Below, piece by piece: positions 3,205 through 61,647 of a DNA stretch of 64,000 nt (its first letter is position 1; the number at the start of each line of letters is the position of its first letter). The position numbers and the translations under genes are program-made. The notes below the pieces were generated by a model. The model ran no database searches and was not told where the DNA came from. It saw only the letters and a list, made by a program, of their open reading frames with translations. The stretch comes from a virus. The stretch is from positions 62,001-126,000 of IMG/VR virus record IMGVR_UViG_3300020394_000003; one strand, 5' to 3'.

Positions 3205-3213
3205 ACTATATAC
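3205..3213 (+). promoter_or_regulatory. Candidate late-promoter motif (ACTATATAC)
   Basis: A near match to the ACTAYWTAY motif found in most gaps of this window, 32 bases upstream of the gp25-like start. It is one of the weaker copies. Confidence 0.35.
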
Positions 3214-3244
3214 TTTATAATTAACTCAAGAGGAACACTCACCA

Positions 3245-3637
3245 ATGGCTTATGACGCTTCACTTCCATTCAGAAGAGATGAAACTACTGGATTTGCTAC
3301 AATCGATACTGTAGCCGACGCAGTACATCAGGATTTAAGAATATTGCTATTGACTACCCCGGGCGAAAGAGTCATGGACCCTTTATTCGGAGTTGGATTA
3401 AAAAGATTTTTATTTCAACCACTAGTGTTAGGTACCCTAGGAGATATTGAAGTACGTATCCGCAACCAAGTTAAGAAGTATTTAAATTTTATAACAATTG
3501 TAAATATAGACTTTTCTAGTGCACTAAGTACAGCACCGGGTACGTCAGTAACTGATATGGATGAAAACCTGCTGGGAATCACTATAAGCTATCAGTATGG
3601 TTATAATGAAGTAAGGGATTTGTATATAACAGCCTAA
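3245..3637 (+). CDS. 25: Baseplate wedge protein, T4 gp25-like (GPW/gp25 family)
   Basis: 130 residues, nearly the same length as T4 gp25 (132). The family hallmark is visible: a DLRILLLTTPGERVMDPLFG segment (residues 29-48) followed by GLKRFLF, then a predicted alpha/beta core ending in ISYQYGYNEVRDL. In contractile tails gp25 sits at the inner end of the baseplate wedge, next to gp6, and serves as the template for sheath assembly. The gp6-like gene follows after 40 bases, matching the usual pairing. An AGAGGA ribosome-binding site lies about 10 bases before the ATG. Confidence 0.92.
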   Translation: MAYDASLPFRRDETTGFATIDTVADAVHQDLRILLLTTPGERVMDPLFGVGLKRFLFQPLVLGTLGDIEVRIRNQVKKYLNFITIVNIDFSSALSTAPGTSVTDMDENLLGITISYQYGYNEVRDLYITA

Positions 3638-3655
3638 AATTTAAAAATTTAGGCT
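3631..3655 (+). other. Hairpin spanning the gp25 stop codon
   Basis: AGCCTAAA and TTTAGGCT form a perfect 8-base stem around a 9-base A/T loop, overlapping the stop codon of the gp25-like gene. No T-run follows, so it is not a standard terminator. It could be a processing site or an mRNA stability element. Confidence 0.45.
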
Positions 3656-3677
3656 AGTTAATGGATGGAGTTCTACG

Positions 3678-5483
3678 ATGTCAAAAGATAAAAGATTTAA
3701 CAGAAATATACGATACACAAACAGAGACTTTACATCTGTTAAAAATGATTTAGTAGAGCAGGCAAAGATTTACTACCCTGACACGTACAAGGACTTTAAT
3801 CAGGCTAGCTTTGGTTCAATGATGTTGGACTCAGTAGCATACGTTGCAGATCAGCTTAATTTTTATTTAGACTATCAGGCCAATGAAAGCTTTATTGATA
3901 CGGCTGTCGAATATGAGAATGTTGTAAGGCACGCTAAGAGTTTGGGATACAGATGGAAGGGCGCCCCTTCTAGCTTAGGCGTGATTTCCATGTATGTCAT
4001 TTGCCCCGCCGCAGGTCTCGGAATGGGAGTAGATTTAGATTATGTCCCAGTGCTAAAAGCCGGCGCCCAATTCACATCACAGTCGGGCGGCAGCTTTTTA
4101 TTAATGCAAGATGTGGATTTTTCTTTAAGTTCAAATGAAATCGTAGCTGCTAGAAAAGACTCCACAACAGGTTTACCTACACACTATGCGATCAAAGCAT
4201 ATGGTAAAGTCATTTCTGGCGAAATTATGAGAAAAACAGTTAATGTTGGCAGCTTTCAAAGATTTAGAAAAATTCAAGTAGGTTCGTTAAGTAACGTGTC
4301 GGAAATTTTACGTGTCACCGATGACGAAGGTCACGAATATCATCAAGTTGAATATCTATCACAAGACGTTATTTACAAAGAAGTTGTTAACAAAGATGCT
4401 CGCATCTCTGGGGTACCATCCGTGATGCGCCCTGTCTCTGTTCCTAGGAGATTTATTATTGAAACAGAAGGTAACGATCTCTATATTCAGTTTGGCCATG
4501 GCTCAGACTCAGAAGCAGCCTCTCCATCAGTGGTAGAACCTACAAACTTAACGCTGCAGCAGTTTGGAAGAAGCTATATTACGGATGAATCTTTTGATCC
4601 CAATAACTTATTATCAACGGATAAACTAGGAATTAGTCCGTCAAATACAAGAGTGTATGTGATTTATAGAATCAATAGTCAGACCACTGCAAATGCAGCA
4701 GTTGGAACAATAACAAAGGTTGGCAGCAACGAAATGTTATTTAGGGCCGAGCACGAACTGAGTCAAAAAAAGGTAAGGGAAGTAAGAAGATCTTTAGAGT
4801 CTTATAATGAAGAAGCAATCGTGGGGGCAATTACGCTTCCCGATACTGACGATATTAAAAGAATGGTGTACGATAACTTTGCAACTCAAAACAGGGCTGT
4901 CACAAAACAAGATTACTTATCACTAGCATATTCTATGGATCCAAAATTTGGCAAAATTAAACGATGTAACATCATGAGAGATCCTGATTCATTAAAAAGA
5001 AATTTAAATATGTATGTTTTAGCTGAAGCACCAAATGGAAAGTTATCGGTTGCAAATGACTCATTAAAAAGAAACTTAAAAACTTGGCTAAATCAATATA
5101 GGATGATCAATGATACAATTGATATTCTAGATGGAAAAATTTTAAATTTTAGAATTGATTTTGATGTTGTGGGGCACAGAGACTATAATAAGCACGATGT
5201 TTTAAATCAATGTGTAAAAGTGTTGAGAGATGAATTTGCACAACCAAAATATATGGGTGAACCATTTTATATTTCTGATATTCAGAATATGTTAAACGAT
5301 GTAGATGGTGTTACCGACGTTAAGATGGTTAAAGTTACATGCATGAATGGCGGAATTTATTCCGATTCTTTTCTTGACATAGCACAACAAAAGTCCGCAG
5401 ATGGAAGATATATCGTAATTCCAGAAAACTGCGCAGTAGAAATTAAATATCCAAGAAACGATATTGTGGGGACAATTACATAA
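3678..5483 (+). CDS. 6: Baseplate wedge subunit, T4 gp6-like (Baseplate_J family)
   Basis: 601 residues (T4 gp6 is 660). The N-terminal part has the gp6 pattern of NRNIRYTNRDFTSVKNDLVE followed by FGSMMLDSVAYVADQLNFYL (residues 46-65), the helix bundle that starts gp6 and gpJ proteins. A central beta domain follows (about 110-350). The C-terminal half has VTKQDYLSLAYSMDPKFGKI (about 410-429), typical of Baseplate_J proteins. gp6 dimers form the inner ring of the baseplate and join neighbouring wedges. The start has a TGGAG site 7-8 bases upstream, and the stop overlaps the next start (TAATG), suggesting translational coupling. Confidence 0.9.
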   Translation: MSKDKRFNRNIRYTNRDFTSVKNDLVEQAKIYYPDTYKDFNQASFGSMMLDSVAYVADQLNFYLDYQANESFIDTAVEYENVVRHAKSLGYRWKGAPSSLGVISMYVICPAAGLGMGVDLDYVPVLKAGAQFTSQSGGSFLLMQDVDFSLSSNEIVAARKDSTTGLPTHYAIKAYGKVISGEIMRKTVNVGSFQRFRKIQVGSLSNVSEILRVTDDEGHEYHQVEYLSQDVIYKEVVNKDARISGVPSVMRPVSVPRRFIIETEGNDLYIQFGHGSDSEAASPSVVEPTNLTLQQFGRSYITDESFDPNNLLSTDKLGISPSNTRVYVIYRINSQTTANAAVGTITKVGSNEMLFRAEHELSQKKVREVRRSLESYNEEAIVGAITLPDTDDIKRMVYDNFATQNRAVTKQDYLSLAYSMDPKFGKIKRCNIMRDPDSLKRNLNMYVLAEAPNGKLSVANDSLKRNLKTWLNQYRMINDTIDILDGKILNFRIDFDVVGHRDYNKHDVLNQCVKVLRDEFAQPKYMGEPFYISDIQNMLNDVDGVTDVKMVKVTCMNGGIYSDSFLDIAQQKSADGRYIVIPENCAVEIKYPRNDIVGTIT

Positions 5484-7027: not shown

Positions 7028-7038
7028 CGAGATAAAAT

Positions 7039-10000
7039 ATGGCAATCAAAGATTTATTTGAGAAACCACAGCAAGTACTGAGTTCGGCAGATTCCGAAAA
7101 GACAACCAAAGGAAAGGTCGAATCAATCGACAACCTTGATGCAGTACTGCGTCAAAAAGAAGAGTTTGTTCCTTATATCGATCACTCCTCTGCATCTAAT
7201 TTCGCCATCTATGGCTCTGCTGAAAAATACTATGAAGATGCTTTCACGGCAATCTATCGACAATATCCTTATGACGGTTCCGCTCACGAAAAAAAAGAGT
7301 ACGAATTAAACATAAATTATCTAACAAGGTATATTCTAGATAACAAATATCCTAGAACAAATGGTTATATTACGCTAGGACTGAATAATACGTATTCGGG
7401 CCTATCAGGTTCATACGGCAATGTAGCCTCCAGCGAATATATTAAGGTTGTAGGGGGCCCGCACACAGCATCAAACCTTCAATATGATGTTGAGGGCATG
7501 ATTGGACGCCCTCTTTACGAAACTTTCAAATACTCAAATAAGCTTGCTTCTAATCCATATGAACTAGCTGGCTTAGCTAAGGGGCAAAACTTAGGCTCAC
7601 AGCTTTCAAACTTGAGGTTTAATGCCTCAGACGGAATGACTGTTGAATTCTGGCTTAAAAAGACTGCCTTTGATCCAACAAAGACCAAAAGAGAAGTTGT
7701 ATTTGATCTTTGGAATGGAAAAAATCATGTAGGGGCAGATCCTGATTTGTCATCTGGTAGATTTTTGATTGAGCTTTCTAGTAGTGACGGTGGCCCCTTT
7801 AGGCTTACATGTGTTTCTGGTTCTACTTCTTTGGCATCCGATCTTGCAATTTGTAGCACTAGTATAACCGGCGGCATAGTTGCCAACGGCGGCTGGAATC
7901 ATTATGCTGTGTCTCTTAAATCATATCCTTCTAGCAATGAGACATTGGTTAAGTTCTATGTCAATGGCGATTTGGATAAGCAGACAACAATTAGCGGCTA
8001 CATTAACGAAGTTACAGGCGGCTTAAACGCATACATTGGTGCCCTGCAAACAGGTACCGCTCTTGGCGGCGCCGCTGGTTACGGGCTGCTTAGTGCGTCT
8101 TTAGACGAGTTTCGATACTGGAAGGAGGCACGAACATCAGAGGATATTGGTAGAAACTGGTGGACTCAAGTAAATGGAGGATCAAATACTGAAACTGCAA
8201 ACACAAGCCTAGGTGTATATTATAAATTTAATGAAGGTATTGTACAAACCTCCGCTGCAGATACCGCTGGTTATGCTTTTGATAAAAAGATTTTGGACTA
8301 CTCTGGTCGCGTATCAAACGGAGTTTGGGTTGGGTACCCGGGCCTCCCACATCGTGCTAGAAGTACAAATTCGGCCATTGTGGAAGCGAATGTGGCAGCA
8401 ACAGAATTTAAAGACCCAATTCTATACAGTACACACACTAGAGTTAAAAATTTAAGAACCGAGCTGATGGCTAGCGGTTCGATGTGGGATGATGAAAATA
8501 ACGCATCACTGTTGAACGCACTGCCATCTTTTATGCGAGAAGAAGACGAAGAGATAGGGGACGGAACATTAACGAATACATTACAAATGATGGGTGCATA
8601 TTTCGACAAGATCCATCATTTAATTGATGCATTGCCAAAAGTTAGAGCTACATCGTATCTTACAGCATCAGCAAAGCCCTATCCTTTCGCCACTCATTTG
8701 CTGGAAAGTATTGGGTTAAACGCCCCTGAACTTTTTGTACAGGCGAATGTGCTAGAGTCGTTTGCTCAAAGAGATGAAGACCGTCCGTATACGCAAGATT
8801 TAACAGAGCTTAAAAATCTTATTTATCAAAACATTTACAATAACTTAACATACATTTACAAGTCCAAGGGTACTGAAAAGTCTATTCGAAATATTGTACG
8901 TTGTTTCGGAGTAGACGAAGAACTTATTCGACTTAATTTGTATTCTAGCAATTTAACTTATGAGTTAAAAGATAATACTAGAACTAAAACAGTAAAATCA
9001 AAATGTGTTAATTTTAATGACGTTGATAAATTTGACTCTACAATATATCAAGCGGCAGATCCTGACAATGCAAATACTTCGGCGTATATTACTGGATCCG
9101 GCCCGACAACAGTAACCGCATCTTTAGGTAAAGAAGATTTGCTTGGAATGACTGTGGAGGGAGAATTCATTTTCCCAATCAAGCTTACTAGGCGAGATTT
9201 CGGATATTTTGACACCCCATTTACAAAAGTGTCTCTATTTGGCATGCATACGCCAACAAAGAATGGTAATTCATTTGACACCAAAGACTATGCAAACTTC
9301 CAAGTTCAAGCTATAAAACCGAATGCAGAATCTAACCATGCATATTTTAAGCTTACCTCAAATTATGACCCGTACCCAATTCCAGAGCTAACATCCAGCT
9401 TGTTTAATGATGTATACGACAATCAAAGATGGAACCTATCTGTTAGAATTAAACCACTTGATCCCGTAACTAACTTTGTACAAGACAATCAGGTTGATAC
9501 AACGTTTAACCCGCTAGCAAGAATGTGCCAAAACTACGAAGTTCACTTTTATGGCGTGAACATGGAAACAGGATACCCAGAGCATACCTTCCACCTTTCG
9601 GGAACCATGGAGGCACATAAAGCTAGAGATTTTCTGAGAGCTTCAAAGAAAATCTATGCCGGTGCCCACAAACAAAACTTTAACGGCGCCACAATCGATC
9701 TCTCAGATGTTAAAGTATCGAACATTAAATACTGGGCAACTTGTTTAGATAATGAAGATTTACTAGCACATGCTAGCGATCCAGAAAATCACGGTGTTAC
9801 AGATCCATACAAGAATGTTGCTTTACAGGTTGCGAGCCTTAATAAATGGCACATTCCAAAAATTGATACTTTAGCCCTTAACTGGACATTTGAAAACTGT
9901 GTTGCACCATCTTCTGATGCAGGCGACCCATCAACTGACGACTCGTTTTTCTTCGTGGACGACATCTCATCGGGCTCGTCAGAAGCGGTTGCTTCCGCAA

Positions 10001-13000
10001 AGTATGGCTGGTTCAGCAACATTATTGATCAACAACACAGTGGAAAAGGAGACAGGTTCTTACCGCCAGAAAGTGGTGACAAAAATCCAATTGATGTAAA
10101 CTACATCTCTTCTGCCCGTCGTCAGTTACCAGAGGTTGTAAATACAAACGACGCTGTTCAGATTTTAAGACAAGATGATGATAAGTTTACTAGAGAACAC
10201 AGCATAGTACAGCACTATTATGCTATCGAAAAGAGCATGTACCAGACCATTTCTGAAGAAATGATTAATATGTTCGCATCAATTGTTGATTTTAATAACT
10301 TAATTGGTGAACCGGTAAACCGCTATCGACAAGAATATAAAGACCTAGGAAAGCTTAGGCAACTGTTCTTTGACAGAATTGGAAATACACCAAGTCTAGA
10401 TAAGTACGTTCAATTTTACAAATGGCTAGACTCAGCTGTCACCACTGTTATCCAAGAACTCATCCCAGCGTCAGCCGAAGTTGCTGCAGACCTACACAAT
10501 ATGGTCGAAAGTCATGTTCTTGAGAGAAATAAATACTGGACTAAGTTTCCTACGATTGAGTTCAAGCAAGATGATCCTGAAGCGGGCCTTCGCGGTGTCA
10601 TGGAGCTTACGTATGATTGGGAGCATGGCCATCATCCTGTAAATCAAAATCAGGCAAACAACGCTCTTTATTGGAAAGAGCGCGCAGAACGAGATGATTT
10701 CCCGCTGTCAGTGACAGCTTCCGTCGGCTCGCCATTCTTTCAATTAGATGGTAACCCAGTAGATGGTAACAAAAATACAATTCGTCGCACCCTAAACACT
10801 CACAGGGAGGCTAAGAAAAACTCTCTAGCAAGACCTGATGGTACTCTGTATGGAGGCCGTGAATACTCATTAAGAAAATTTACAAAGCCATACAAATTAG
10901 AAATGGACATGCCACTAGAAATAAAATCTGGCATCAATTTTGAAAAAAATAAAAATGTAGATATTGCGAAAAACCTTTTGCATCCAAACGCGCCGCTTAC
11001 AATAAGCTCATCGACTAACGGTCCACTAGCCGATTTACCAACAAATGTAATGTTTGTAGATGGTGACAATATTGATTCTTTTAAAGATGTTAGTGACGAT
11101 TTAGAACTGAACAAGGGCAAAAGAAAATATACTGGTACAGTTATTATGGGTCGAGAAAAAGAATTCGATCAGCACAATAATGAGACCTACGCAGAAACTA
11201 CATACGCAAAAGTACTACCAGCAACAATCGTATCCAGTTCGGTAGTAACAGGCTACAACAAGGTGTTCGCTGGTGTTGATGCTCCCGGGTTTGTTACCGG
11301 CGCTTCGATCACAAACATTCATCATGATTTTTATGGACAAGATCGAGAGATTCCGATGCAAGGTCCGTTCACAGAAAAATATGTAGGAGGACATCAATCT
11401 AGACACGTTCGCCTAAACCCCGGAACAGACGATTTCCAGAATAGGCCCGAGGCGTGGAGAATCCTAGTAGGAAAAGTCGTTCCCGGCTGCAGCCGTCAAG
11501 ATCCCGGTGCCTTTGGATTTGTGGGGCAAGATTACCCATATCCAGTTATTGGTAAAGAACCCATAGCTGCCACTGGAATAATTAATTGCCATATTGGTTC
11601 AGACTTGCCATTTTGCGATCCAGCAGATGGAGATACCATTACTATCAGTGATGGCAGGACCACATCAGTATTCGAATTTGATACTAACGGCTCCGTAGTG
11701 GCTGGAAATGTAACACTTGATATATCAGGAGTCAGTGGAGGTGCAAATAGTCGATCAAGACAGTATGCACAAATTCTTGCAAATGCTATCAATGCAGTAG
11801 CAGACTTACAAGTTCAAGCCACTGATAACGAACACACAATAACACTAGTTAACACATTATATGGTGCACCCTCTTCGAAAGCTTCGTTTTCTCTGGGAGC
11901 CAAGGGAAACGCTGCAATTGTAAAAACCCCCAAAAACAGCGGCGCAGGAATTGGCAGGTCTCACAGTGAAACAACTGTGTGGCGAGTAACTGGTATGGCC
12001 GGCGGACAAAACCCGGTTATTTTAAATCAAAAGCCGCCAAGAGCGGTCCGGTACCGAGAAGAATTGATCAAGCGACCAGTTAACTTTAAGAACATTAGGC
12101 AAACAACTGCCTCTGTCGACGTGGTTGTTGAGGCTTCAAGACAGCACGGCCCAATCGGGAACTATACACACAACTATGAAATTGTCCAATCTGCAGGTAG
12201 AACAACAAATGATCTAGATTTTAGAAAAACAAGCAGACTGGATCATCAAGATACAGCGCTAGCAAAAGGTGGTCAAGATATTGATGCTGTAACGTACAGC
12301 AGAAAACTTTTACAAAGAGAAATTACAAATGAAGACGAGCCGCAACATGCAGGCGGGAGCCTAGGAGATCCTAACTTCTGGCACAGGAATGCCCCGGGCG
12401 TAACGCACAGCACAAGAGACCTTTCGAAAAATCCTAGAAGAGGAAAAAACAAGACTGTAATTGTATCAAGATTTAGCGCACCGGGTGGCTACGAAAGCAT
12501 GTCTCGCGGATTTTTAGACCCAGCGCATGAAGAGCATTCACCATATGATGTAGTTACGTTCCGCAATAGAGCAGTTAGGGGAGAATTCCAATACATTGCT
12601 ACTAGCGGATCAGTACCAGAAAACTTTAAAGATACACTCTATCAAGACGGCTTGGATGCAACGACATTTAGAGTAGTAGATATTCACGGTGAACCGTGGG
12701 GCCTAAAGAGTCATCTTACTAGATACACTGCACCATATGGCAGAGATTCAGTGCTATCTCATGGCCCTCTTCAAGGTACCGAAGTGCTTGAAAATGAAAC
12801 TTTTTACCCGGGCTTTCATAAAGTACATCGCAATGGAGCTACTGCAAACGACTTTACTACAGATATTGATCGAGTAACACACACAACATACTACGGAGTT
12901 CCCATGAACCGCGGTATAGTGATGGCTTCCGATGTTGCAGGTTTCACTCCTTCTGCACCGGGCGGTACTAAAAACAGCTCGCGAGCCTTAAGATATGTCA

Positions 13001-16000
13001 CTCATCGCATTGGCTTTCCTATCGGCCACCCCGGTACCGGTAGAGAATTTACTATGGCCGTGTGGATTTATCCTCTTAAAAATCAATCTAACAGGACGGC
13101 AGTTTGGGCCCTTGGTGATCGCGGCCTAGGCGGTACACACATGAGAGATACCCCGAACAACAGACCGGCCTGCCATATGTCTATAGACATCGATCAAAGA
13201 ATTTACTTTAGTATCAATGACCCACTTACTCACAACCAAAAAAGAATGTGGTATACAACAGATGGAAGCAATCTCAGTGTCCAAACGAAAGTACATAATA
13301 TTGTTTTAAGTTATGACGGTAGTTCGACTAGCAATGTTCCAGTCATTTACGTTGATGGGGTAGCCAAAGCCCTCACTGAAACACCTGAAGGGGGAACAAT
13401 TGATCATAGCTATCAGATGGAACGAATCGATGAAGATCCACACCGCGCCCACGGATCAACATCCGATACCGCTAACGGCATTATTGTCGGCGGCGGACCC
13501 TCTGCAGGCGCGACTCCCTCAAACACACATCTAAGTTTTTGCGATACGATCTTTATGGAGGCTGCTCTTTGGGCAACAAACCTTAGTGCCGCGCAGGTGA
13601 CGCAAATTTATGCAAATGGTTATATGCCAGATCTTACTAGCTCAACAGGTGGTATTCCCACTATTAACGGTGGCTCAATTACATCAACAGAAGATTTGGT
13701 ATCTTGGTGGAGGTTTGGTGATCAGACCAATGACCCCGGTAACCCGTCACAGATTCGTCAATCGGGCTCCACCGCGGGCAATGGATATAGCATGCTCGGA
13801 ACGCCGGTCCTGAGAGATGTGGCGGGGCTCAACAACATTGCACCGATGTATAAGGGAAATGCAATAACAGATTCACAAAATAAAATAAATTATGCCAATA
13901 TTGTCACAGAGGAAGCTTCCTCGATTGACCTCGGTGCGCTTGACATCTCCGCCTTCCAGCCCGCAGCACAAACACCTGCATATTCCATTAGCACAACCGA
14001 GCTTCAACACACAACGAACTTCTTTACAAAATTAAAATTTGACAACTACTGGGTACAGCATCAGATCCCAAGAAATCACTCTAACTATAGTTGGATTAAG
14101 GCTTCGTTAATAACCGGATTTCAGCCTGTCGGATTTCCTACATCCAGCGATGCACTAGCATTTTTGCAACGCTCAGAAACGGGCTATAATGTACACCTTT
14201 CGGATCGACGCAGATTTGATGCCAGTCTTAACACAACCGACAACGCTGCATTCTCGGATATTCAAGGAACAAGCTTCACTGGATTAAACACTGTCATTGC
14301 AGAACCTGTAAACGTATCAACAAATACACTAGGTCATCCTGTTAAAGGAGTCTTCAGTGCTACAGATGATGACGGGACTGTTTATACATCCCTGTATGGT
14401 CCACCCCTAGCGCATGGCATGCAAAGTACACACCCAAAGAATCACCTACAATATCTAAATGGTACGTTCATCCCCCAAGTATATAAATACGTCGACAGCG
14501 ATGGAATTGTAACGGATACAGACCCCTTTATATTTAACAGCTTGATTCACAATAGACAAGGGCCATATGGTTGGCCATCGTGGAAACAAATCCGTGGAGC
14601 CGATCATCCTGTAGTCAGGGCACAAAAGAAAGAAAACATGTTTTCATTTGTGTTGCCCGATGCACTAGAGATTCATTTACAAACATCGACTGGTCACAGA
14701 GTAATTAGGCCTCGCTATGGCGATATTAATGTGTATGATAGGGTTATGCCTGTTACTTCAAAATTTAAACCTATTTCATCCACCATAAACGTTTCTACAA
14801 AAATTAGAAATAGTTTTGGAAAAGATGTATCAAAAGACATTCCTATTGATATCAGCACCACTTATGGCAACGAACTAGTTTACTTTAACAGAGAAAAGGT
14901 AAATAAAAAACTAAACTTGTCTAGAAGTAAAGTAGCGGCATACGAAGAAGTTAAAGCAATGTTTACAAAGGGTGCTTTAGAATCTTCAATATCTCCCGTT
15001 ACATCTATCAATAAATTCGTATATAAGGAAACTATCTATCCATCACACGATAACATGTATAGCGGCGACGTTCGAATTAAACAAGACTATAGTAATAACT
15101 TTTGGCGCGCCACTCACGCTGAAAGAACATCAAACAATCCAAAAACAATTCATGGTCAAGCTTTTTATGGCCGTGATCCCCAATATCTTGGAAATGATAA
15201 CCTTGGCCCCAGCCTCACTCACTTCGGCACCGGTGGTTCAGTAGGAAGACCGTCAATGTCAATATGGCCACTAGACGAAGCAACTGGCGCCATGGACAAC
15301 CTGCCAAATACTTCTTACAGAGCAAAATGGGCTAATGGAAGTTTTCATAGTGATTGGATTGGAAAGGGAGAGGGAGAACTTCTCAATAGGTGGTCATGGC
15401 CGATTAAATGGGACCAAGGATACTACACGCAAGGAACTGGTTACCCAACAAGTTCAGTCCGAGGAGATAATTCTACGAATAACCATGGCACCACAGCCAA
15501 AAATCGCCTGCTGCCTGAAGCAACAGCCTGCTATTACATGCCTCATTTTATGCATGCAACCTCTTCGATTACCTCTCCAACTGGATTACCGCTGGTTTCA
15601 TCAACGGCTTCTGCATTTCCATATACAACAAGTGAACAACTGGAAAATGTTATGTCGTTAGCCAATGCTAGCGGAATCAATCCTGCTCAAGCAGTGCAGG
15701 GCGTCCGCGTCGTAGAGGGCATTTATACTACAGAAGAATGGAACACAGATCAAGCAACTGCTGGCAATTTAACGATTCAACCTTTAAATCAAAATTCTAA
15801 TTATGCTGGATTCGTACCAATGCAAAGTGGATACACAGCGTGGCAAGCGGGTAAGCTAGCTGGAGTCATAAGAGAAGTATCTGTACCTCAAGATGGAACT
15901 GAAGAATTGGTTAATAAAGGAACGCAGTTTACCAAGTTCGTATCAGCATCAACCGACCCTTGGTACTCATCATATGATGAATTTTACAATGATATTAGAG

Positions 16001-19000
16001 TAAAAGCAAAAGACTACTCAGTGTTGCCAGAGTTTAGGATGGAAGACCACATTGGGGACTATATTAACAATAAGGGTGGAGACTTTTTAGCAGAGCAAAA
16101 TTCATTGTTTAGAATGGTGGGTATGCCCTCTGGTTCTAATGAATTAGCAGCAAACAGTTCCGAAGATAACTTTTACAAAATTTACGGTACAAGTGATTTC
16201 TTGAAACATTTTGACATACTTAAAAATGATATTGAAGAACACTTTCAACCATCGTCTCTGACGCTCAAGTGTAACGCTGTTCTTAAATTTAATCCATACG
16301 ATGGGTTCTACCCTGCACAGAGAACATTGCAACTAGCTAGTCAATTTTCTGCTTCATATGGCCGATATGTTGAGTATGAAGGCCCCGGTATGCATTTTCA
16401 TATGGCAAACGATGATGACGCCGAAACGTCAGGTGGGTATATTTTCCGTCAACATCCAATTGGCGAAACAGCCGGCGTAACTACAAATTTAGCATTTAGA
16501 AACTTTTTAAGTCCACTATTCTCGCCGGGAATTATGTTTAATACTATTAAAGCTGGTATCGCCTGTGACTGGCCTGTTATGACCGAAGGTGTTAAGATTT
16601 ATAAAACTAGGTCAGGAAAGTCAGACTATTGGGGATTAGGTTTTTCTAATCCACACCAAGATGATGAGCTTCATGACCGTTTCGACGCTCTGTACGGCGT
16701 ACCCAACAATACACACGTTTCTGCGACTAAACAACTAAACGAATCAAATGGTGTGCTACAAAGTGGAATTTTTAAGATTAGAGAAGATTTAAGAAAAGGC
16801 GCTATTTCCGAATCTTTAATTGTGCAATCTGCATCAATTGCGGGTATTTCGGACGGGTTCCGAATTATTGAGCCCGAAGGAAAGTATAACCATGGCGGTG
16901 ATGAAACGGACGGTGGATTTTATGCAACAAAGATTAATGTCGCCGATCTTCCCGGTATGCAAGCCACCAGCTATACACTCGACCCAATCCGAGATGATAA
17001 TAGTCTAGTATTTACTAGAATTAAAATTACAGCATCGTATGGTCCCGGCCCCAACATGGGTAGATGGGATAAGAGGATCCCCTTTGAGGCGATGATTAAT
17101 CCTGAAAATTATCTAAAAAATATTAAACTATTTGATTATATCGCACATCCATCTTGCTCACTAGACGTTACTGCATCTTGGCAAGGCCAAGGCGATGAAT
17201 TGTATTCCATGATGGCAAACAACTTCCTAGCCGCAGTACCCGACTTTTTCTTAAAAAATAATTCGATGACAACTATTTCTTCTAAAGCACAGGATGAATT
17301 AAATTTATATGCCGAGCAGGGGACTTCTTATGGGATGAGAATCAAGATGTATCGTTCTCTAAACAGGGAAAGGAACTACAATGCCGAGCGCGCCCGCGCA
17401 CTTCGAACTAAGCTATATGATGTTCCTCAAGATCCACGCGATGACCACGGTCTACATGAAACGTTTACTATGTATAGCCGAGCCTCCGCTTTCGGACCTC
17501 CAATTTTTGGAAGAACACACTGTGTAAGAAATGCTGGGAACCCTGTCCTTGCAACAGATCCCAACCCAGATACACTAGCGCAAGCAATCGCGTCAAAGCT
17601 GACAGCATCTTATAGTGCTTTAGAACTCGGCAATATATTCTCTGATCTTGATATAGAAATTTTGGATGCATGCGGCACGCAGCGTATTCCTGAAACACTC
17701 TTTCACACCGCTTCATTCCACGCTACCACTGGTGGAGTATTGGATAGCGTCGAGGGATACTATTGGTCACACACTCCTCCGTATTATCACGGAGAAGCAT
17801 GGTGTGATTTAATCTTTAAGCCAAAACAATCAAAAACTTACTCGCTAGCAGAAATTGTCGATCAATTAGAAGTGCGACAATATCGTGTAGACCCCGGCTT
17901 TGAAGATCCTACCGGTGCAAGCGGAGAAATGAACCCACAATTTATTCCCAACGGATTCCACAGTTCTTCACTATACTCTGCTGAAAACATTAACGCGAAT
18001 GCAATGCAGATTGACTCAAGTGTTAACTTATTTGGAATTGGAAAGGTAAAAACATATGCTTATAACAATGTTGGAGCAACAGGAAGGGCCTCAGCAACTA
18101 CGGTAAGAAGAACGACAGGGGATTCGCCGGCGTGGATTATCCAGCCTAAATTTGAAACTCCGATGCTTAACTTCAGCAGTCTAACCCCAGCACAAGGTGG
18201 AACATGCCCAAGGCCGCTTACTGACGACATTCTGGAGACTCCATTATATGGTGCGGAAGGTGCTCCTAGGGGAATGTGGCATCAATTCGGTACCTTGCCG
18301 CAAGGCAGTGAAGGCGTGTACTTGTCAGTGGGCGATATCCCTTCAGACTGGCTAAATAACCACCCATTAGCAAAAAATTCAGATATTTATGCTGGGTCTG
18401 ATGATGAAGGATCGGGTTCTCTAGCAGCATACAAGCGCGCTTTCTTGGGAGACAGAAATCAAGGAATGAAGTCTCTGTCTGATTTAGTCGGAATGGATAC
18501 TACACCACAAAGACTTGGCACAATCAAGGAGACTATGACAGTATATGAAGCAGTCGTTGCTGTTCCGTTCGTACTAAAAGACAATTTAAGATGGTTCTTT
18601 ACTCTAGACCCACATATGGTTGATGTGGCCCTAGGAGAAGAATCTTATCGTATTCAAGATGGATCTGACGAACCGGGTGTCTCAATTGCTGAACAGCTTA
18701 GAAAAATGCAAAAATATGTATTCCCGCCTCAATTTGATTTTCTTAATAATAGAGAATTGACACCAATGGCGATGTATATTTTTGAATTTAGTATGAAATT
18801 TAGTAAAGATGATTTATCATATATGTGGCAAAACTTGCTACCGCCGACCACTAAAAAATTCGAAATGGCTTCAGCCAATGTGCATCATAATTTATTGATC
18901 AATGAATTGATGGGCTATGCAAATAGAGAAGATGCACAGCCACTTAAGGACAATATTCAATGGATGGTATTCAAGGTTAAGCAACGCGCCCCTGTGAATT

Positions 19001-20006: not shown

Positions 20007-20015
20007 ACTATATAT
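20007..20015 (+). promoter_or_regulatory. Candidate late-promoter motif (ACTATATAT)
   Basis: Lies in the 47-base gap after the giant gene, 25 bases before the next ATG. It matches the ACTAYWTAY consensus. Confidence 0.4.
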
Positions 20016-27613: not shown

Positions 27614-27622
27614 ACTATTTAT
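27614..27622 (+). promoter_or_regulatory. Candidate late promoter (ACTATTTAT), first of two copies
   Basis: An exact copy of the core motif, followed by AATAG, ending 35 bases before the ATG at 27658. A second, weaker copy (AACTATTTAAAA) lies at 27629-27640, so this gap has a doublet. Confidence 0.5.
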
Positions 27623-27657
27623 AATAGTAACTATTTAAAAAAGGAAGAGGATTACAC

Positions 27658-37903: not shown

Positions 37904-38098
37904 ATGATGGCAGTAGTAAAAGCAAGGTTAGACGCACTAGTTGAAAAAATGATTTCTCGCAAGTTTATGGTGTGGCTCACGGCAACAGGGCTCATGGTTT
38001 GGGCCGGCCTAGAATCGTCAGATTGGGTGATTATCTCAGGAATCTATATCGGTGGTCAAACCGTTATTGATGGCATTGCCAAACTCAAGGGTGTTTGA
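37904..38098 (+). CDS. Small two-helix membrane protein, holin-like
   Basis: 64 residues with a GGAGG site just upstream (ATG at 37904 or 37907). Two hydrophobic segments are visible: FMVWLTATGLMVWAGL (about 21-36) and WVIISGIYIGGQTVIDGIAK (about 41-60), with a basic N-terminus. Size and topology fit a small holin, and similar short phage proteins with an IYIGxQxxIDG motif are often annotated that way. The next two genes are also membrane-associated, so a lysis cassette is plausible, but no endolysin is found in this window. Function is inferred. Confidence 0.55.
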   Translation: MMAVVKARLDALVEKMISRKFMVWLTATGLMVWAGLESSDWVIISGIYIGGQTVIDGIAKLKGV

Positions 38099-38505: not shown

Positions 38506-38956
38506 GATTATACAAATATTGGGCTTAAGTCTAATTTTTGGAAGCCCCGCATACGCAGACGAACTGGCAGAGACATCTAACGGCAAATTTACAATACTAG
38601 AACAGAGCGCACCCGCTCCATTTAGGGGCACACTATTTGATCCTGCAGCCACAGCCTACCTGCTGACGTTTCAAGAAACTTTAAAAGCACAGTATCAGCT
38701 AGATTTGGAGTATAGGATTAGCGAGCTAAATGCTACACATACACTAGAATTGACAAATTTAGAAATTAGATACACCGCTCTTAGTGACGAATATCAGCTT
38801 AGAATTGACGCAAAGGATTTAGAAATTCAACAGCTAAACGATTCGCTAGCAAAACTCAGCAGAAACGATAGACACTGGTTTGTCATTGGGGGGTTTGCTA
38901 TTGGCGTAGGGGTGACAGCTGGAATTGTTGCTGCGGTTAACAGTGCGAGTAAATAA
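38495..38956 (+). CDS. Exported coiled-coil protein with C-terminal membrane segment (possible spanin-type lysis protein)
   Basis: 153 residues from the ATG at 38495, which overlaps the upstream gene by 11 bases; a TTG at 38483 is less likely. The N-terminus is a signal peptide (IIQILGLSLIFGSPAYADE) with an AYA-D cleavage pattern and no lipobox cysteine. A helical charged middle follows, then a C-terminal membrane segment WFVIGGFAIGVGVTAGIVAA (about 128-147). Signal peptide plus C-terminal anchor resembles a unimolecular spanin, but the lipid-modified cysteine is missing. It lies with the two small membrane genes before it. Function is inferred. Confidence 0.5.
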   Translation: MWSRIIQILGLSLIFGSPAYADELAETSNGKFTILEQSAPAPFRGTLFDPAATAYLLTFQETLKAQYQLDLEYRISELNATHTLELTNLEIRYTALSDEYQLRIDAKDLEIQQLNDSLAKLSRNDRHWFVIGGFAIGVGVTAGIVAAVNSASK

Positions 38957-39568: not shown

Positions 39569-39577
39569 ACTATTTAT
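39569..39577 (+). promoter_or_regulatory. Candidate late promoter (ACTATTTAT)
   Basis: An exact copy of the core motif, followed by TAAAAGG, 18 bases before the ATG at 39596, in a 36-base gap. It would start the packaging/prohead transcription unit. Confidence 0.5.
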
Positions 39578-45101: not shown

Positions 45102-45440
45102 TTGGGTAGCTTATATGTAATGAACCTAGTATGGTTCATCTTATGTGCCTACGGGCTAACACAGATTATTGTATACGGCAGTATATTCAATAAGATAAGA
45201 CCTTCTAAGACATGGCTTGCCGGGTTTGGTGAATTATTTCACTGCCCAATGTGTATGGGATTCTGGGTTGGTGTTTTTTTGTTTTGCATTTCTCCGTATA
45301 CTGAACTATTTACCTTTGAGCAAACTATGGCAAATATTTTTATTTGTGGCTGGGTTTCATCTGGGACCTCATACATAATGAATGTTTTATTTTGTGATAA
45401 CGGAGTTCAACTGGGGGTAAACAGTAAAAATGAAAATTGA
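45102..45440 (+). CDS. DUF1360-like membrane protein
   Basis: 112 residues. The start is taken as the TTG at 45102 because AGAGG lies 6 bases upstream; the in-frame ATG at 45120 has no ribosome-binding site. Three hydrophobic segments are visible: LVWFILCAYGLTQIIVYG, a middle one beginning at the CPMCMGFWVGVFLFCIS motif, and a C-terminal IFICGWVSSGTSYIMNVLF. The CPxCxGFW motif between helices is the hallmark of DUF1360 phage and sporulation-associated membrane proteins. Function is unknown in the family. It is the only integral membrane protein inside the prohead cluster, and its end overlaps the next gene by 11 bases. Confidence 0.7.
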   Translation: MGSLYVMNLVWFILCAYGLTQIIVYGSIFNKIRPSKTWLAGFGELFHCPMCMGFWVGVFLFCISPYTELFTFEQTMANIFICGWVSSGTSYIMNVLFCDNGVQLGVNSKNEN

Positions 45441-47135: not shown

Positions 47136-47144
47136 ACTATTTAC
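47136..47144 (+). promoter_or_regulatory. Candidate late promoter (ACTATTTAC)
   Basis: Matches the core motif with C as the last base, followed by AAAAAG, 34 bases before the ATG at 47179. It separates the head cluster from the fibre island. Confidence 0.45.
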
Positions 47145-53757: not shown

Positions 53758-53790
53758 AAAAGAATATACCCTAAAAACGCATAAAAGCAC

Positions 53791-53799
53791 ACTATATAG
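53791..53799 (+). promoter_or_regulatory. Candidate late promoter (ACTATATAG) inside an imperfect palindrome
   Basis: The motif lies in GCAC-ACTATATAGA-GTGC (53787-53804), in the 178-base gap before the 53885 gene. Downstream the leader contains a GCCCT/AGGGC hairpin (53822-53843) with an inner GC/GC extension and a strong GGAGGG ribosome-binding site at 53871. Nothing else is seen in the gap. Confidence 0.4.
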
Positions 53800-53884
53800 A
53801 GTGCACGCTTCAGAAACATTAGCCCTGCTATATGCGGAAGGGCGTGCTAAAGCAATTTTAAATACATTTTGGAGGGTATAAATA

Positions 53885-55480
53885 ATGGCTTATAAATTTC
53901 AATTAGGAAGCTTTACAGCTTCGGGCTCCATTAAGGTTGAGGATACGCTTGACGCGGCTTCAACTTTGCAAATTGGTGGAGTTGGGGTCACAGCAACCGC
54001 AGCTGAGATTAACCTCATTGATGGTGGTACCGCTCGCGGAACCACTGCTGTAGCATCCGGCGACGGATTCTTACACAATGATGCTGGAACCATGAGAATG
54101 ACTAGTGTCGATAAGATGGCGGATCTTTTCGCTGGAAACGCGCTATCAGCCTCTTCTGGTGTTCTCAGTGTTAAAGCTGATGACGCATCTTTGGAGATCA
54201 ACTCTGACGCACTTAGAGTTAAAGAAGGTGGTGTTACCAACGCAATGCTTGCTGGCTCTATTGCCAACGCTAAGCTTAGCAACAGTGCTATCACACTAAA
54301 CCCCGGTGCAGGATTAGGTGCATTGGGTTCTGTTTCACTCGGTGGTTCTATCAGTATTGCTGTTGACGGCGTTCTTGAGGACCTTGACACCCTTGGTGCT
54401 CCAAGCGCTGATGGTGAATTCCTTGTTGCTACAGGTGCTGGCGCTTTCGCTTACGAAAGTGGTGCAACTGCTCGTACTAGCATTGGTCTTGGTACCGGTG
54501 ATAACGCTCAGTTCAACGCCGTCATCATTGCTGATGACGCAGCATTTGGTGCAGTTGGTGATACCGACATGTTAACCATGGACGCTGGTAGTGACATCAC
54601 AGTTGCTGCCGATCTCGACTTTGTTATCGGAAAAGCAGGTGGTCTTACTCTTGCTGACGGTGCTGTCCAGTCAACCGCTGCAGAGCTTAACTTACTCGAC
54701 GGTGCAGGTGCCGGTTCTGTTGTCAACAACAAAGCTGTAATCTACAACGGCGGCGGTGTTGTTATCGGTCAGTCTCTCGCGACTGCTGATGATGGCCACC
54801 TCGGTAACCAAACAACCCCACAGATGATTCAGATGAAGGCTACTCGCGTTGAGTTCAACCAAGCTGTTGTGTTCAACGATGACATCTTCGTATCTGGCTC
54901 TACAGTGACAATGGATCAACAGCATCTTGTTATTCAAGATAAGCTTATTGGTCTTGGTTTCGTTTCTGGTTCTGTCACAGATGACAATGTTTCCGCCCCC
55001 GGCGACCGCGGATTTATCTTCGGTATGCACGGCGAAGACAACGTTGCTATGCACTGGGATGAAGGTTCGTCTAGATTCAAGTTTATCAAAACGGACTCAC
55101 TTCCTACCGCTACTACGGTTAACGAAGTTTCCAAGGCTGACCTTGAGGTTGGTGTGCTTCACGCTTCCAGCGTTGTCGCCCCGCTTTCACTCAGCATTGA
55201 TGCACAAGCTCAAGACGCAATTAACCTTTCTTCTGCTGCAGGTAAGGTTGTATACGTCACTGGCACCTTGGCCGCTAGCCGAAGCACTACGCTTCCAGCT
55301 GCGCCAAACGTCGGTGATCAAATTGATGTCAAGCTAGCTGCCACTGGTGGTAACTCACTTACAATCGAAAAGGGTGCCGATGGGCACAACATCGATGGTG
55401 GTGATTCAATCATCCTTGAGTCAGACTTCGCTGCTGTCAAGCTCGTTTACGTTGCTGCTAACACATGGAGAGTCTTCTAA
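53885..55480 (+). CDS. Abundant fibre-like virion protein with shared C-terminal module
   Basis: 531 residues, low in aromatics and rich in Ala/Gly/Ser/Asp. The first 300 residues have fibre-type repeats (two AAEINLIDG/AAELNLLDG segments at about 38-46 and 266-274). A middle IFVSGSTVTMDQQHLVIQDK block follows. The C-terminal module (about 440-531) ends in SIILESDFAAVKLVYVAANT as in the proteins at 47586 and 52606. Codon choice shifts toward AAC, GAC, CTT, GGT and CGT relative to neighbours, and it has its own structured leader and a strong terminator, which together suggest very high expression. A major fibre, whisker or capsid-decorating role is inferred. Confidence 0.68.
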   Translation: MAYKFQLGSFTASGSIKVEDTLDAASTLQIGGVGVTATAAEINLIDGGTARGTTAVASGDGFLHNDAGTMRMTSVDKMADLFAGNALSASSGVLSVKADDASLEINSDALRVKEGGVTNAMLAGSIANAKLSNSAITLNPGAGLGALGSVSLGGSISIAVDGVLEDLDTLGAPSADGEFLVATGAGAFAYESGATARTSIGLGTGDNAQFNAVIIADDAAFGAVGDTDMLTMDAGSDITVAADLDFVIGKAGGLTLADGAVQSTAAELNLLDGAGAGSVVNNKAVIYNGGGVVIGQSLATADDGHLGNQTTPQMIQMKATRVEFNQAVVFNDDIFVSGSTVTMDQQHLVIQDKLIGLGFVSGSVTDDNVSAPGDRGFIFGMHGEDNVAMHWDEGSSRFKFIKTDSLPTATTVNEVSKADLEVGVLHASSVVAPLSLSIDAQAQDAINLSSAAGKVVYVTGTLAASRSTTLPAAPNVGDQIDVKLAATGGNSLTIEKGADGHNIDGGDSIILESDFAAVKLVYVAANTWRVF

Positions 55481-55513: not shown

Positions 55514-55542
55514 GGGGGCCCTCTTCGGGGGGCTCCCTTTTT
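55514..55542 (+). terminator. Intrinsic terminator with UUCG tetraloop
   Basis: GGGGGCCCTC-TTCG-GGGGGCTCCC forms a 10-pair stem (two G-U pairs) capped by TTCG and is followed by TTTTT. It ends transcription after the 53885 gene. Confidence 0.88.
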
Positions 55543-55566
55543 GTTTGGAACATTCCCAAACAGTCT

Positions 55567-55575
55567 ACTATTTAT
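55567..55575 (+). promoter_or_regulatory. Candidate late promoter (ACTATTTAT)
   Basis: An exact copy of the core motif, extended as ACTATTTATAAAAG, lying between a strong terminator (ends 55542) and the next ATG (55614). Transcription must restart here, which makes this one of the best-supported copies. Confidence 0.6.
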
Positions 55576-57484: not shown

Positions 57485-57493
57485 ACTAATTAA
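57485..57493 (+). promoter_or_regulatory. Weak late-promoter-like motif (ACTAATTAA)
   Basis: An imperfect match to the ACTAYWTAY motif, 35 bases before the scaffold ATG at 57529. No other promoter candidate is seen in this 94-base gap, and the scaffold-capsid operon must be transcribed somehow. Confidence 0.25.
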
Positions 57494-58667: not shown

Positions 58668-60503
58668 ATGTCTATTCTTAATAAACTTACTGAAGGCATT
58701 GTCGAGCGTGACCTCTCCCGAGAGTCACATGCGCTTCTCACCAAGTGGGAGCGTACAGGCCTTCTTGAAGGTTTGACCAACGACCGCGACCGTAACGCCA
58801 TGGCCCGTCTCTTAGAGAACCAAGCCAAGGAGCTACTTCGTGAGTCTACCAGCATGAGCGCTGGTGATGTTGAGGGTTTTGCCTCTGTTGCATTCCCCAT
58901 CGTCCGTCGCGTTTTTGCGGGACTCGTTGCTAACGAGCTAGTCTCTGTTCAGCCAATGAGCCTCCCATCTGGTCTCATCTTCTTCCTCGACTTCAAGTTC
59001 AGCCCCAACATTGCTGACGCAAACGACCTTTCGACTGATGTTCGTACTGATGGTCTTTTTGGACAATCTAACGACAAGTCGATCTATGGTACAGACAAGG
59101 TAGGTAGCCAGATCACTGGTGGTGTCAACCTAGTCGGAACTTACGGTGATGATCAGTCTGGTCCTCGTACAACCGTTGGTTACGCATATGGTAGCCCCTC
59201 TGGTTCTGCAATTCTCGACGCCGCGGATTCTGATGTAAACCATCACCACGTTCGCGCTTGCTTCGCACTTAACAACGTTACTGAAGCTCAGAAGAAACTG
59301 ATCATGTACGATCCCGATCTTCTTGCCCTTTCAGGCTCTGGCACAGCTGCTGCTGTTCTCGTTGTTTCGGTCGACAAGAGCATTCTCACTAGTTCTGCTG
59401 GTGCGGAAGCTGACTTCGATAACCTTGGAGCGTTTAGCCTTCATGATATCAACAACTTTACTCAAGTTGGTACCGGAGCTAGGCAGGTTCGTCGCCTTAC
59501 TCGTATGCAGGATTCCGACGAGACCACCACAGAACGTGTTCTTTTCACTGTCGTAGGTGCAAACGGCGCCGCTGGTGTTAACCAATCTGGCGTAGCTGCT
59601 TCCGGTTCTATTGTTGGCGGATCTGACGTTACTATCCGATTCCCAATCCGTGATCAGCTTACTGCTTCCGACGCCCTCGGCGCGGTTGTTGGTGCTACAC
59701 CTTGGGGACTTGAGAACGAAGCGTCGATTCCAGAAATCGACATTCAGGTTGACAGCATCGCTGTTACCGCACAGACCAAGAAGCTCAAGGCGAAGTGGAC
59801 CCCCGAACTCGGTCAGGACCTCAACGCTTATCACAACCTCGATGCTGAGGTTGAGCTTACCAGCATTCTCTCTGAGCAGATCGCTCTTGAGATTGATCGT
59901 GAGATCCTTGCTGACTTGGTTCGCGGCGCAACCGCTGCAACATACTACTGGTCACGTTCACCCGGTATGTTCCTGAACCGCGAAACTGGCCTTGAGGTTG
60001 GTGCTGCTTCTGCTGCCCCTGACTTCACCGGTACTGTTTCCGAGTGGTACGAGACTCTTGTCGAGACCATTAACGACGTATCTGCTCAGATCCATCGTAA
60101 GACTCTCCGTGGTGGAGCGAACTTCATTGTGTGTTCACCTGAAGCCGCTAACATCCTTGAGTTTACCGCTGGATTCCGTGCTAGCGTCACAGCCGATGAC
60201 GAGCGCGGCACCGTTGGTGCTGTCAAGGTTGGCTCCCTGTCCAAGAAGTGGGACATCCATGTGGATCCTTACTTCCCACGTCAGGTCATCCTTGTCGGTC
60301 GTAAGGGCGGATCATTCCTCGAAAGTGGATATGTGTATGCTCCATACGTCCCGCTGCAAGTCACTCCCACCATCTTTGGACCAGAGGACTTCGTGCCCCG
60401 TAAGGGCGTGATGACTCGTTACGCCAAGAAGATGGTGCGTCCTGATATGTATGGCTTAGTTGTCATCCGTGGAATGGTCGGAGAGTCTGGCGCTACTAGC
60501 TAA
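58668..60503 (+). CDS. 23: Major capsid protein, T4 gp23-like
   Basis: 611 residues (T4 gp23 is 521), HK97-type fold. gp23 hallmarks are visible: FPIVRRVFAGLVANELVSVQ and PMSLPSGLIFFLDFKF (about residues 75-112), ETINDVSAQIHRKTLRGGAN (about 464-483), and the C-terminal run GYVYAPYVPLQVTPTIFGPE and PRKGVMTRYAKKMVRPDMYG (about 557-597). A gp21-type cleavage near SAGDVE-GF (about 67-72) is plausible from the position of the T4 site. Codon use differs from neighbouring genes (CGT/CGC instead of AGA; AAC, GAC, ATC, GAG favoured), fitting very high expression. AAGGAG precedes the ATG, and a strong terminator follows the gene. Confidence 0.96.
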   Translation: MSILNKLTEGIVERDLSRESHALLTKWERTGLLEGLTNDRDRNAMARLLENQAKELLRESTSMSAGDVEGFASVAFPIVRRVFAGLVANELVSVQPMSLPSGLIFFLDFKFSPNIADANDLSTDVRTDGLFGQSNDKSIYGTDKVGSQITGGVNLVGTYGDDQSGPRTTVGYAYGSPSGSAILDAADSDVNHHHVRACFALNNVTEAQKKLIMYDPDLLALSGSGTAAAVLVVSVDKSILTSSAGAEADFDNLGAFSLHDINNFTQVGTGARQVRRLTRMQDSDETTTERVLFTVVGANGAAGVNQSGVAASGSIVGGSDVTIRFPIRDQLTASDALGAVVGATPWGLENEASIPEIDIQVDSIAVTAQTKKLKAKWTPELGQDLNAYHNLDAEVELTSILSEQIALEIDREILADLVRGATAATYYWSRSPGMFLNRETGLEVGAASAAPDFTGTVSEWYETLVETINDVSAQIHRKTLRGGANFIVCSPEAANILEFTAGFRASVTADDERGTVGAVKVGSLSKKWDIHVDPYFPRQVILVGRKGGSFLESGYVYAPYVPLQVTPTIFGPEDFVPRKGVMTRYAKKMVRPDMYGLVVIRGMVGESGATS

Positions 60504-60535: not shown

Positions 60536-60567
60536 AAAGCCCTCTTTCTTCGGAAAGAGGGCTTTTG
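60536..60567 (+). terminator. Intrinsic terminator with UUCG tetraloop after the capsid gene
   Basis: AGCCCTCTTTC-TTCG-GAAAGAGGGCT is a perfect 11-pair stem capped by TTCG, with further A-T pairs at the base and TTTTGTTTT after it. It is the clearest terminator in the window. Confidence 0.95.
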
Positions 60568-60579
60568 TTTTGCCCTCAA

Positions 60580-60588
60580 ACTACTTAC
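60580..60588 (+). promoter_or_regulatory. Candidate late promoter (ACTACTTAC) with a structured leader
   Basis: The motif follows the capsid terminator directly and lies 98 bases before the next ATG. The leader holds GAACCT/AGGTTC (60593-60610) and CCGTA/TACGG (60643-60656) hairpins, then GGAGGG before the start. Nothing else is seen in the 183-base gap. Confidence 0.45.
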
Positions 60589-61136: not shown

Positions 61137-61161
61137 ACAAACAAATAAGTTTTCATACTTT

Positions 61162-61194
61162 CCCCCCTTCCCATTCGGGTTGGGGGGTTTTTTT
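61162..61194 (+). terminator. Intrinsic terminator
   Basis: CCCCCC and GGGGGG pair, then a TT/TT internal mismatch, then CCC/GGG around an ATTC loop, followed by seven T. It ends the decoration-protein unit. Confidence 0.85.
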
Positions 61195-61204
61195 GATAAA
61201 GTTT

Positions 61205-61213
61205 ACTATTTAT
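61205..61213 (+). promoter_or_regulatory. Candidate late promoter (ACTATTTAT)
   Basis: An exact copy, extended as ACTATTTATAAAAG exactly as at 55567, 11 bases after a terminator and 28 bases before the next ATG. Confidence 0.6.
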
Positions 61214-61241
61214 AAAAGCACCTGTTTAAAAGGAGACTATT

Positions 61242-61613
61242 ATGGGTAAGAAAAGACGGGCACTCTCATCGCCCCAAAAATTTAAAGCTAGATACCGACA
61301 GTTGAGAGGCACCCCCTCTACTACGGCAAGTACGGACAACTCAGTAATGATTGCTAAACTAGCAGAACAAAAACAAAGGGAAGTAGAGACCCCTACCCCA
61401 GTTGTGGAAGAGGTACTAAACGCAGCAGAAGTTGAGCCAGCAGTTGAGCCAGTTGCTGAAGCTGTCGTAGAAACACCAACAGTGGCCCCTGCCGTTACAG
61501 CACCGACAATTAAGAAAACAAGCAGTACACGATCTAGAACTAGCACAAGAAAAAAATCTACGCGCACCCGTAGAACTAAGGCTAGTAAAGCAGACTCTAC
61601 CAAAGCTGAGTAA
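61242..61613 (+). CDS. Low-complexity protein with histone-tail-like basic C-terminus
   Basis: 123 residues with AGGAG upstream. It has three parts: a basic N-terminal 30 residues (KKRRALSSPQKFKARYRQLR), an acidic Val/Pro/Glu/Ala repeat region (AEVEPAVEPVAEAVVETP, about 62-79), and a Ser/Thr/Lys/Arg tail (SSTRSRTSTRKKSTRTRRTK) like histone H1 or bacterial HU-type tails. It is probably disordered. It may bind DNA inside the head or neutralise charge, or link scaffold partners. I do not recognise a named family. Confidence 0.55.
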   Translation: MGKKRRALSSPQKFKARYRQLRGTPSTTASTDNSVMIAKLAEQKQREVETPTPVVEEVLNAAEVEPAVEPVAEAVVETPTVAPAVTAPTIKKTSSTRSRTSTRKKSTRTRRTKASKADSTKAE

Positions 61614-61638
61614 AACAAGCCGGTTTCTATATTGCCTA

Positions 61639-61647
61639 ACTACTTAT
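61639..61647 (+). promoter_or_regulatory. Candidate late promoter (ACTACTTAT)
   Basis: Matches the motif, 18 bases before the ATG at 61666, and is followed closely by an AGGAGG ribosome-binding site. Confidence 0.4.

Follow-up and report, generated by a model that had tools for sequence, protein, structure and literature searches.

Putative late boxes across the window

The stretch of DNA analyzed (the window; 64,000 nucleotides, positions 62001–126000) belongs to a linear, 161,704-bp IMG/VR record of a marine phage, which was read from end to end and nearly all of whose genes, called by simple ORF rules, lie on the plus strand. It includes the genes for a gp23-type major capsid protein, a baseplate wedge protein, the large terminase and a neck/Ad2-like protein, and copies of a short word recur in its gaps (Table 1). 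At window 7039–19992 lies a 4317-aa ORF with no assigned function, and every relative read has it at the corresponding location. Window 38095–38956 holds two overlapping ORFs that resemble a lysis pair of the spanin type: the first has a membrane segment and a coiled coil, and the start of the second is signal-like. Such a pair would imply that the host is Gram-negative. Just past the window (record 126452–129406), the 984-aa tail sheath carries a large insertion when compared with the PHROG profile; its residues 7–982 align to profile positions 22–469. A DnaE-type (bacterial Pol III alpha-like) DNA polymerase is encoded at record 156134–159604, alongside T4-type head proteins.

Table 1. Putative late boxes and associated features (window coordinates unless marked as record)
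Feature	Position	Strand	Context
Late box ACTATATA	3205..3212	+	40 nt before ORF 3245; upstream of baseplate wedge gene
Late box ACTATATA	20007..20014	+	33 nt before ORF 20040
Late box doublet ACTATTTA, at 27614 and 27630	27614..27637	+	before ORF 27658
Late box ACTATTTA	39569..39576	+	27 nt before ORF 39596; just upstream of large terminase gene
Intragenic late box AACTATTTA, codons GAA CTA TTT Axx	45304..45312	+	upstream of ORFs 45430 and 45826
Late box ACTATTTA	47136..47143	+	43 nt before ORF 47179
Doubtful copy ACTATATA within inverted repeat	53791..53798	+	minus-strand hairpin
Intrinsic terminator	55514..55547	+	10-pair stem and T-rich tail; just upstream of box 55567
Late box ACTATTTA	55567..55574	+	47 nt before ORF 55614; exact box at 43 nt in G001
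Late box ACTAATTA	57485..57492	+	44 nt before ORF 57529, the gene preceding the major capsid protein gene
Major capsid protein, gp23 type	58668..60503	+	phrog_138, E 7.7e-68; marker for Far-T4 placement
Intrinsic terminator	60536..60575	+	13-pair stem and T-rich tail; after major capsid protein gene
Late box ACTACTTA	60580..60587	+	after capsid terminator; 107 nt before ORF 60687
Intrinsic terminator	61167..61197	+	7-pair stem and seven T; upstream of box 61205
Late box ACTATTTA	61205..61212	+	37 nt before ORF 61242
Late box ACTACTTA	61639..61646	+	27 nt before neck/Ad2-like gene 61666
gp55-type sigma, 233-aa ORF	record 54069–54770		ends ~7.2 kb before window start

The original prediction described a recurrent motif in intergenic gaps. 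Each of the positions it listed indeed carries the motif or a close variant, and the box is found in 11 of the 14 gaps of at least 30 nt in the window and just beyond; the copy at 55567 is additional, its gap being masked by a small ORF from the simple gene caller. The extension of three cores (27614, 55567, and 61205) as ACTATTTATAA and the position of three copies (55567, 60580, and 61205) after strong terminators were likewise borne out; relatives do not keep the TATTTATA extension. The list itself needs amendment. The copy at 57485, taken as merely weak, is ACTAATTA, an enriched variant that replaces ACTATTTA at an orthologous promoter (the orthologous gap has ACTATTTA in seven of eight relatives and ACTACTTA in the eighth), and the intragenic copy at 45304, which is strongly conserved, had been overlooked. 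At 53791 the sequence is present as listed, but the site is doubtful: it is surrounded by the inverted repeat GCACACTATATAGAGTGC (window 53787–53806), which may be a hairpin or an operator rather than a promoter, and it is not kept before the closest orthologous gene, that of relative G002.

The exact ACTATTTAT occurs five times on the plus strand of the window and never on the minus strand; across the whole record the counts are nine and zero, with two and zero for the reversed control. When one mismatch to the bare 9-mer is allowed, the whole window yields 37 matches, scarcely above the 27.8 expected by chance, and the proper test is therefore gaps against coding DNA and sense against antisense. 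This comparison, which had been suggested at the outset, places the excess in gaps on the gene strand: 7.3 kb of gaps hold 16 sense and three antisense copies, and 154 kb of coding DNA hold 44 sense copies. Consistently, CTATTTA is the top enriched gap 7-mer of this genome (nine observed, 0.36 expected, zero antisense), and the wider box ACTANTTA/ACTATATA has 22 sense copies and one antisense copy in the record's gaps, compared with a mean of 1.44 and a maximum of 7 in 1000 dinucleotide shuffles of the gaps. The box family is best written as ACTAnTTA, mainly ACTATTTA and sometimes ACTATATA. That whole-window single-mismatch counts exceed shuffles only slightly is what an origin by chance, or by AT-rich gap composition, has in its favor; this explanation is already refuted by the gap shuffles and by the counts and frozen codons in relatives described below, and we give it practically no weight. 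An unseeded motif search of all upstream regions, also proposed originally, did find the late box, but mixed with sigma70 −10 sequences and outscored by ribosome-binding sites, and for these reasons it was not decisive.

Conservation and anatomy of the box

A scan with the major capsid protein provided 80 related IMG/VR contigs; a query of INPHARED with window 1–25000 found no close phage. CTATTTA is the top gap 7-mer in these contigs too (261 observed, 4.37 expected, nine antisense). Because the 80 loci share orthologous gaps, sites were grouped by downstream gene, which gave 25 groups, including the pre-capsid gene, the neck gene, and the tail sheath. Summed over 12 long relatives, the box lies 234 times on the gene strand and 10 times on the other strand, an antisense depletion due in part to the stop codons contained in TAAATAGT.

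For a gap-by-gap comparison, eight relatives were read from end to end. In the resulting nine syntenic genomes the box stays before the same late genes, while the surrounding gaps diverge. An exact box is found in the tail sheath gap of nine out of nine genomes, ACTA[TACG]TTA stands 25–31 nt before the start of the neck gene in all nine, and the gap of 27614 carries an exact box or a one-mismatch variant, again in nine of nine. At the gap orthologous to 47136 the exact box is present in G001, G005, and G006; at that of 3205, ACTAATTA is found in G001, G002, and G004 and ACTATTTA in G008. The site at 20007 corresponds to GCTATATA at 28 nt in G001 and is weakly conserved in farther relatives; that at 39569 corresponds to ACTACTTA in G001, also at 27 nt, and is absent in more distant genomes; and that at 60580 corresponds to GCTATTTA at 110 nt in G002. 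No orthologue of the gene downstream of the 61205 box was found in the compared genomes. The 16-bp spacing of the doublet at 27614 is the same in G001, and tandem boxes 16–20 bp apart occur in this gap in three genomes (window 27614–27637; G001 89469–89492; G005 70692–70719), which suggests a conserved double start.

The most frequent of the enriched gap words in the nine genomes is ACTATTTA (103 observed, 3.86 expected, two antisense); the variants ACTAATTA (39 observed, 3.17 expected), ACTACTTA (17 and 1.68), ACTAGTTA (15 and 0.93), and ACTATATA (13 and 1.36) are enriched as well. Changes of the box at orthologous late gaps affect mostly the fifth letter, and substitution counts point to real tolerance chiefly at letter 5, plus A at letter 6.

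The intragenic copy at 45304 lies in the gene at window 45102–45440, whose product looks membrane-spanning. Among 58 distinct phages, the codons at this box are GAA in 54/54, CTA in 56/58, and TTT in 56/56; elsewhere in the gene CTA accounts for 99 of 744 leucine codons (13%), and the median top-codon share is 0.57. The two phages that lack CTA have SLWQ at this place. Since the protein has no need of CTA as its leucine codon, selection acts on the nucleic-acid word of the embedded box itself.

When sites are aligned, ACTATTTA is conserved, a weak T follows, and there is otherwise little in common. The register was set by placing the A of ACTA at −13, as in TATAAATA of T4 (PMC1524935), which puts +1 six bases past the box and gives A(−13) C T A n T T A(−6). 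The purine fraction, 0.54 in the background, is then 0.57 at −1 and 0.72 at +1 (p 1e-6), and it stays high through +4. This onset supports the T4-derived register, and part of the purine excess after +1 may come from ribosome-binding sites. The predicted layout, an 8-bp box at −13 to −6 with no −35 element, is that of a T4-type late promoter. The consensus is ACTAnTTA and not TATAAATA, which the same method recovers when applied to T4.

A box on the sense strand before start codons could also be an RNA-level element, involved in mRNA processing, stability, or translation, and not a promoter. However, the distance from box to start ranges from ~13 to 140 nt among the relatives' sites, many boxes come after terminators, at points where transcription must begin anew, the intragenic copy is codon-fixed at over 100 nt from the next start, and the purine onset matches the +1 of T4 in phages that carry a gp55-type sigma. 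We hold an RNA-level role to be quite unlikely.

Late genes, sigma70 promoters and a gp55-type sigma

In eight genomes, the box is present in 60 of 101 gaps of the late block, 4 of 54 gaps of the replication block, and 28 of 139 gaps of the left arm (Fisher p 1.4e-13); with 20% of left-arm gaps carrying it, the box is not confined to virion genes. The pattern TTGAC..TAnnnT follows the opposite trend in eight genomes, with 5 of 101 late gaps and 30 of 193 replication and left-arm gaps (p 0.0075). The spacing of intergenic TTGACA-TATAAT pairs in nine genomes peaks at 17 bp (67 sites), and these TTGACA-17-TATAAT pairs appear to be ordinary sigma70 promoters, mainly of non-late regions. Bacteroidetes promoters differ from the classic TTGACA-17-TATAAT type, and the promoters seen here may therefore argue against Bacteroidetes as hosts of marine Far-T4 phages. 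Such hosts have been proposed (PMC7198788).

With its AT-rich sequence and its resemblance to TATTTA/TATAAT, in a phage that has sigma70-type promoters elsewhere, the box might itself belong to host sigma70 promoters, as a −10 element of weak or extended type. Yet hairpin-free boxes have neither a conserved −35 signal nor a TG extension upstream, the box and TTGACA-type promoters are partitioned oppositely by region, and the conserved AC at −13/−12 is no sigma70 feature; we consider this origin unlikely. GGG..TTTT, found 14–20 nt upstream of the box, was rejected as a −35 element: it stems mainly from abutting terminators, and hairpin-free sites do not have it. A DNA-binding or replication/packaging signal with no role in transcription would also be a repeated DNA word with strand asymmetry, but the box tracks specific late gene starts across nine genomes and is rare in the replication block, which makes such a signal very improbable.

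The search for a gp55 homologue elsewhere in the genome, called for by the original prediction, revealed a gp55-type sigma about 7 kb before the window. Its ORF has a weak Sigma70_r2 match, whose score does not reach the curated Pfam cut-off. It also hits the late-sigma family of PHROG, phrog_234 (E 7.5e-7), a match found in 18 of the 19 sigma family members. Alignment of the sigma family with T4-type gp55 by hhalign (prob 90.8, E 1.2e-6, 105 columns) covers a shared region-2 core, and by this homology the protein would belong to the T4 gp55 family. Relatives of the sigma are encoded by immuto, Mel-JY01, LR756508, and hundreds of IMG/VR stretches. In a fold search, the predicted model (pLDDT 78, pTM 0.44) resembles sigma factors, including sigma32 and pro-sigmaK, and viral sigma factors; among PDB folds, no match passes E 0.001.

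A short hydrophobic-acidic tail of gp55 binds the sliding clamp (PMC2988020), and T4-type gp55s mostly end in such a tail. The C-terminal clamp-binding peptide (LDFLYE type), which is a feature of T4-type members and not of all of the wider gp55 family, is absent from the present sigma family, where a conserved helical domain (YLREITGLNTKQVVNNLNKMRKRY; model pLDDT 85, pTM 0.72) replaces it. A fold search with this domain gave no significant match, only weak ones to homeodomain/winged-helix DNA-binding domains. Its assignment as sigma region 4 was not supported: Pfam gave no match and a PDB profile search nothing relevant. No sliding clamp of gp45 or DnaN type was found in the record, which is possibly incomplete, and no DnaN scored above cut-off in nine relatives. 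A 102-aa ORF (record 54749–55057, just before the window) comes next after the sigma gene and overlaps its end; it is conserved in nine of nine genomes (48%–71%) and has no convincing family match. Its product is a candidate late co-factor, a counterpart of gp33. The multisubunit RNA polymerase family PF00623 was not found in the record, and a T7-type RNA polymerase was dismissed, the PF00940 match being sub-threshold, inside the terminase gene, and spurious.

In the mechanism we propose, early genes would be transcribed with host sigma70 from TTGACA-17-TATAAT promoters, and at the late switch the phage gp55-type sigma (233 aa) would bring host RNA polymerase to ACTATTTA, which would serve as an extended −10-like element, lying at roughly −13 to −6 and lacking a −35. 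From sequence and model evidence, we think it very probable that ACTAnTTA is the late promoter of this Far-T4 group, to which the sigma directs host RNA polymerase after the sigma70 early genes. A late promoter paired with a diverged gp55-type sigma of new specificity, as predicted, is the best-supported reading, with the sigma itself located outside the window; late timing and use by the sigma are still presumptive. While the sequence itself shows the box with its strand and conservation, its accumulation at late genes, and the family of the sigma, we infer that the sigma reads the box, that initiation occurs at the +1 of T4 geometry, and that expression is late; the link between sigma and box is correlative. 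More tentatively, the late sigma of Far-T4 phages may be a single protein, composed of a gp55-type domain 2 and a helix-turn-helix-like C-terminal domain of its own, that reads ACTAnTTA with neither gp33 nor a sliding clamp, so that late transcription would not be tied to replication as in T4. We regard this arrangement as possible but doubtful.

Far-T4 phages, T4 and Aeh1

Far-T4 phages, distant kin of T4, form a large group of ocean phages, most of them uncultured, and are widespread in aquatic environments. In a capsid tree, the phage group clusters with RM378, immuto, Mel-JY01, and LR756508, apart from T4, cyano-T4, and jumbo relatives (100/99), a tree to be read with caution given the long branch of RM378. 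Grouping of its gp23 capsid with RM378, the cultured Far-T4 reference (PMC4360716), indicates that the phage is a Far-T4. Roux et al. (2015) detected no T4-type transcription-regulation core genes in Far-T4 and concluded that their transcription might follow different patterns (PMC4360716). In the literature searched, Far-T4 and sigma factor were not mentioned jointly and no description of late transcription was found; CTATTTA together with phage and promoter returned unrelated works only. Since these phages also encode a sigma to match the box, T4-like but rebuilt, the question of how late genes are switched on is now testable, and box and sigma, conserved over dozens of genomes, offer a testable answer on Far-T4 late transcription. 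Late operons in many uncultured genomes become annotatable via the box, and the phages provide a natural variant for studying promoter choice by gp55-type sigmas and the need for a clamp in late transcription.

Beyond the close group, evidence for the box is partial in Flavobacterium phage immuto and Microcystis phage Mel-JY01, whose sigma is a distant homologue (26%–29%). TATTTAT is strand-biased in their late gaps (immuto 21:6, Mel-JY01 11:2), and CTATTTA occurs 10 times in immuto, compared with 0.2 expected; the flanking AC is, however, weaker or absent, sites are fewer, and the immuto motif is near-palindromic (TATTTATAAATA). Rhodothermus phage RM378 shares the capsid clade and encodes a sigma factor, but its annotated sigma combines an ordinary region 2 with a weak region 4. 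TATTTAA is enriched in RM378 with little bias between the strands, and we therefore claim no box in common. Strand bias does not support extending a TATTTA box to the whole clade with RM378, and 50 kb of LR756508 showed none.

Close parallels are also found in T4 and Aeh1. In T4, gp55 reads the late promoter TATAAATA (PMC2988020). The 8-bp box at −13 to −6, the lack of a −35, the gp55-type sigma, and T(−11)A(−10)..T(−7)A(−6) are common to both systems, whereas here AC replaces TA at −13/−12, −9 is variable and usually T, and −8 has T for A; the sigma, moreover, has no clamp-binding tail, and no gp45/DnaN-type clamp was found in the record. In Aeh1, a diverged gp55 is paired with the late promoter CTAAATA at −12 (PMC1524935). 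The present phages resemble it in C at −12, the CTAxxTA frame, and the combination of a diverged gp55 with a diverged box, and differ in TT for AA at −9/−8; Aeh1 gp55 also has a terminal tail of the LSFLED type and is a much closer relative of the T4 protein. In register, the box is related on the same strand to the late box of T4 and Aeh1, AA at −9/−8 having become n/T, and it is not an inverted T4 box. The earlier observation that exact copies contain the reverse complement of TATAAATA was misleading: the trailing TA is not conserved, the same-strand relative is in register, and the reverse-complement match is incidental. A review of T4 notes the absence of a fused late sigma (PMC2988020); if true, a clamp-free, single-protein late sigma in these phages would be its natural counterpart.
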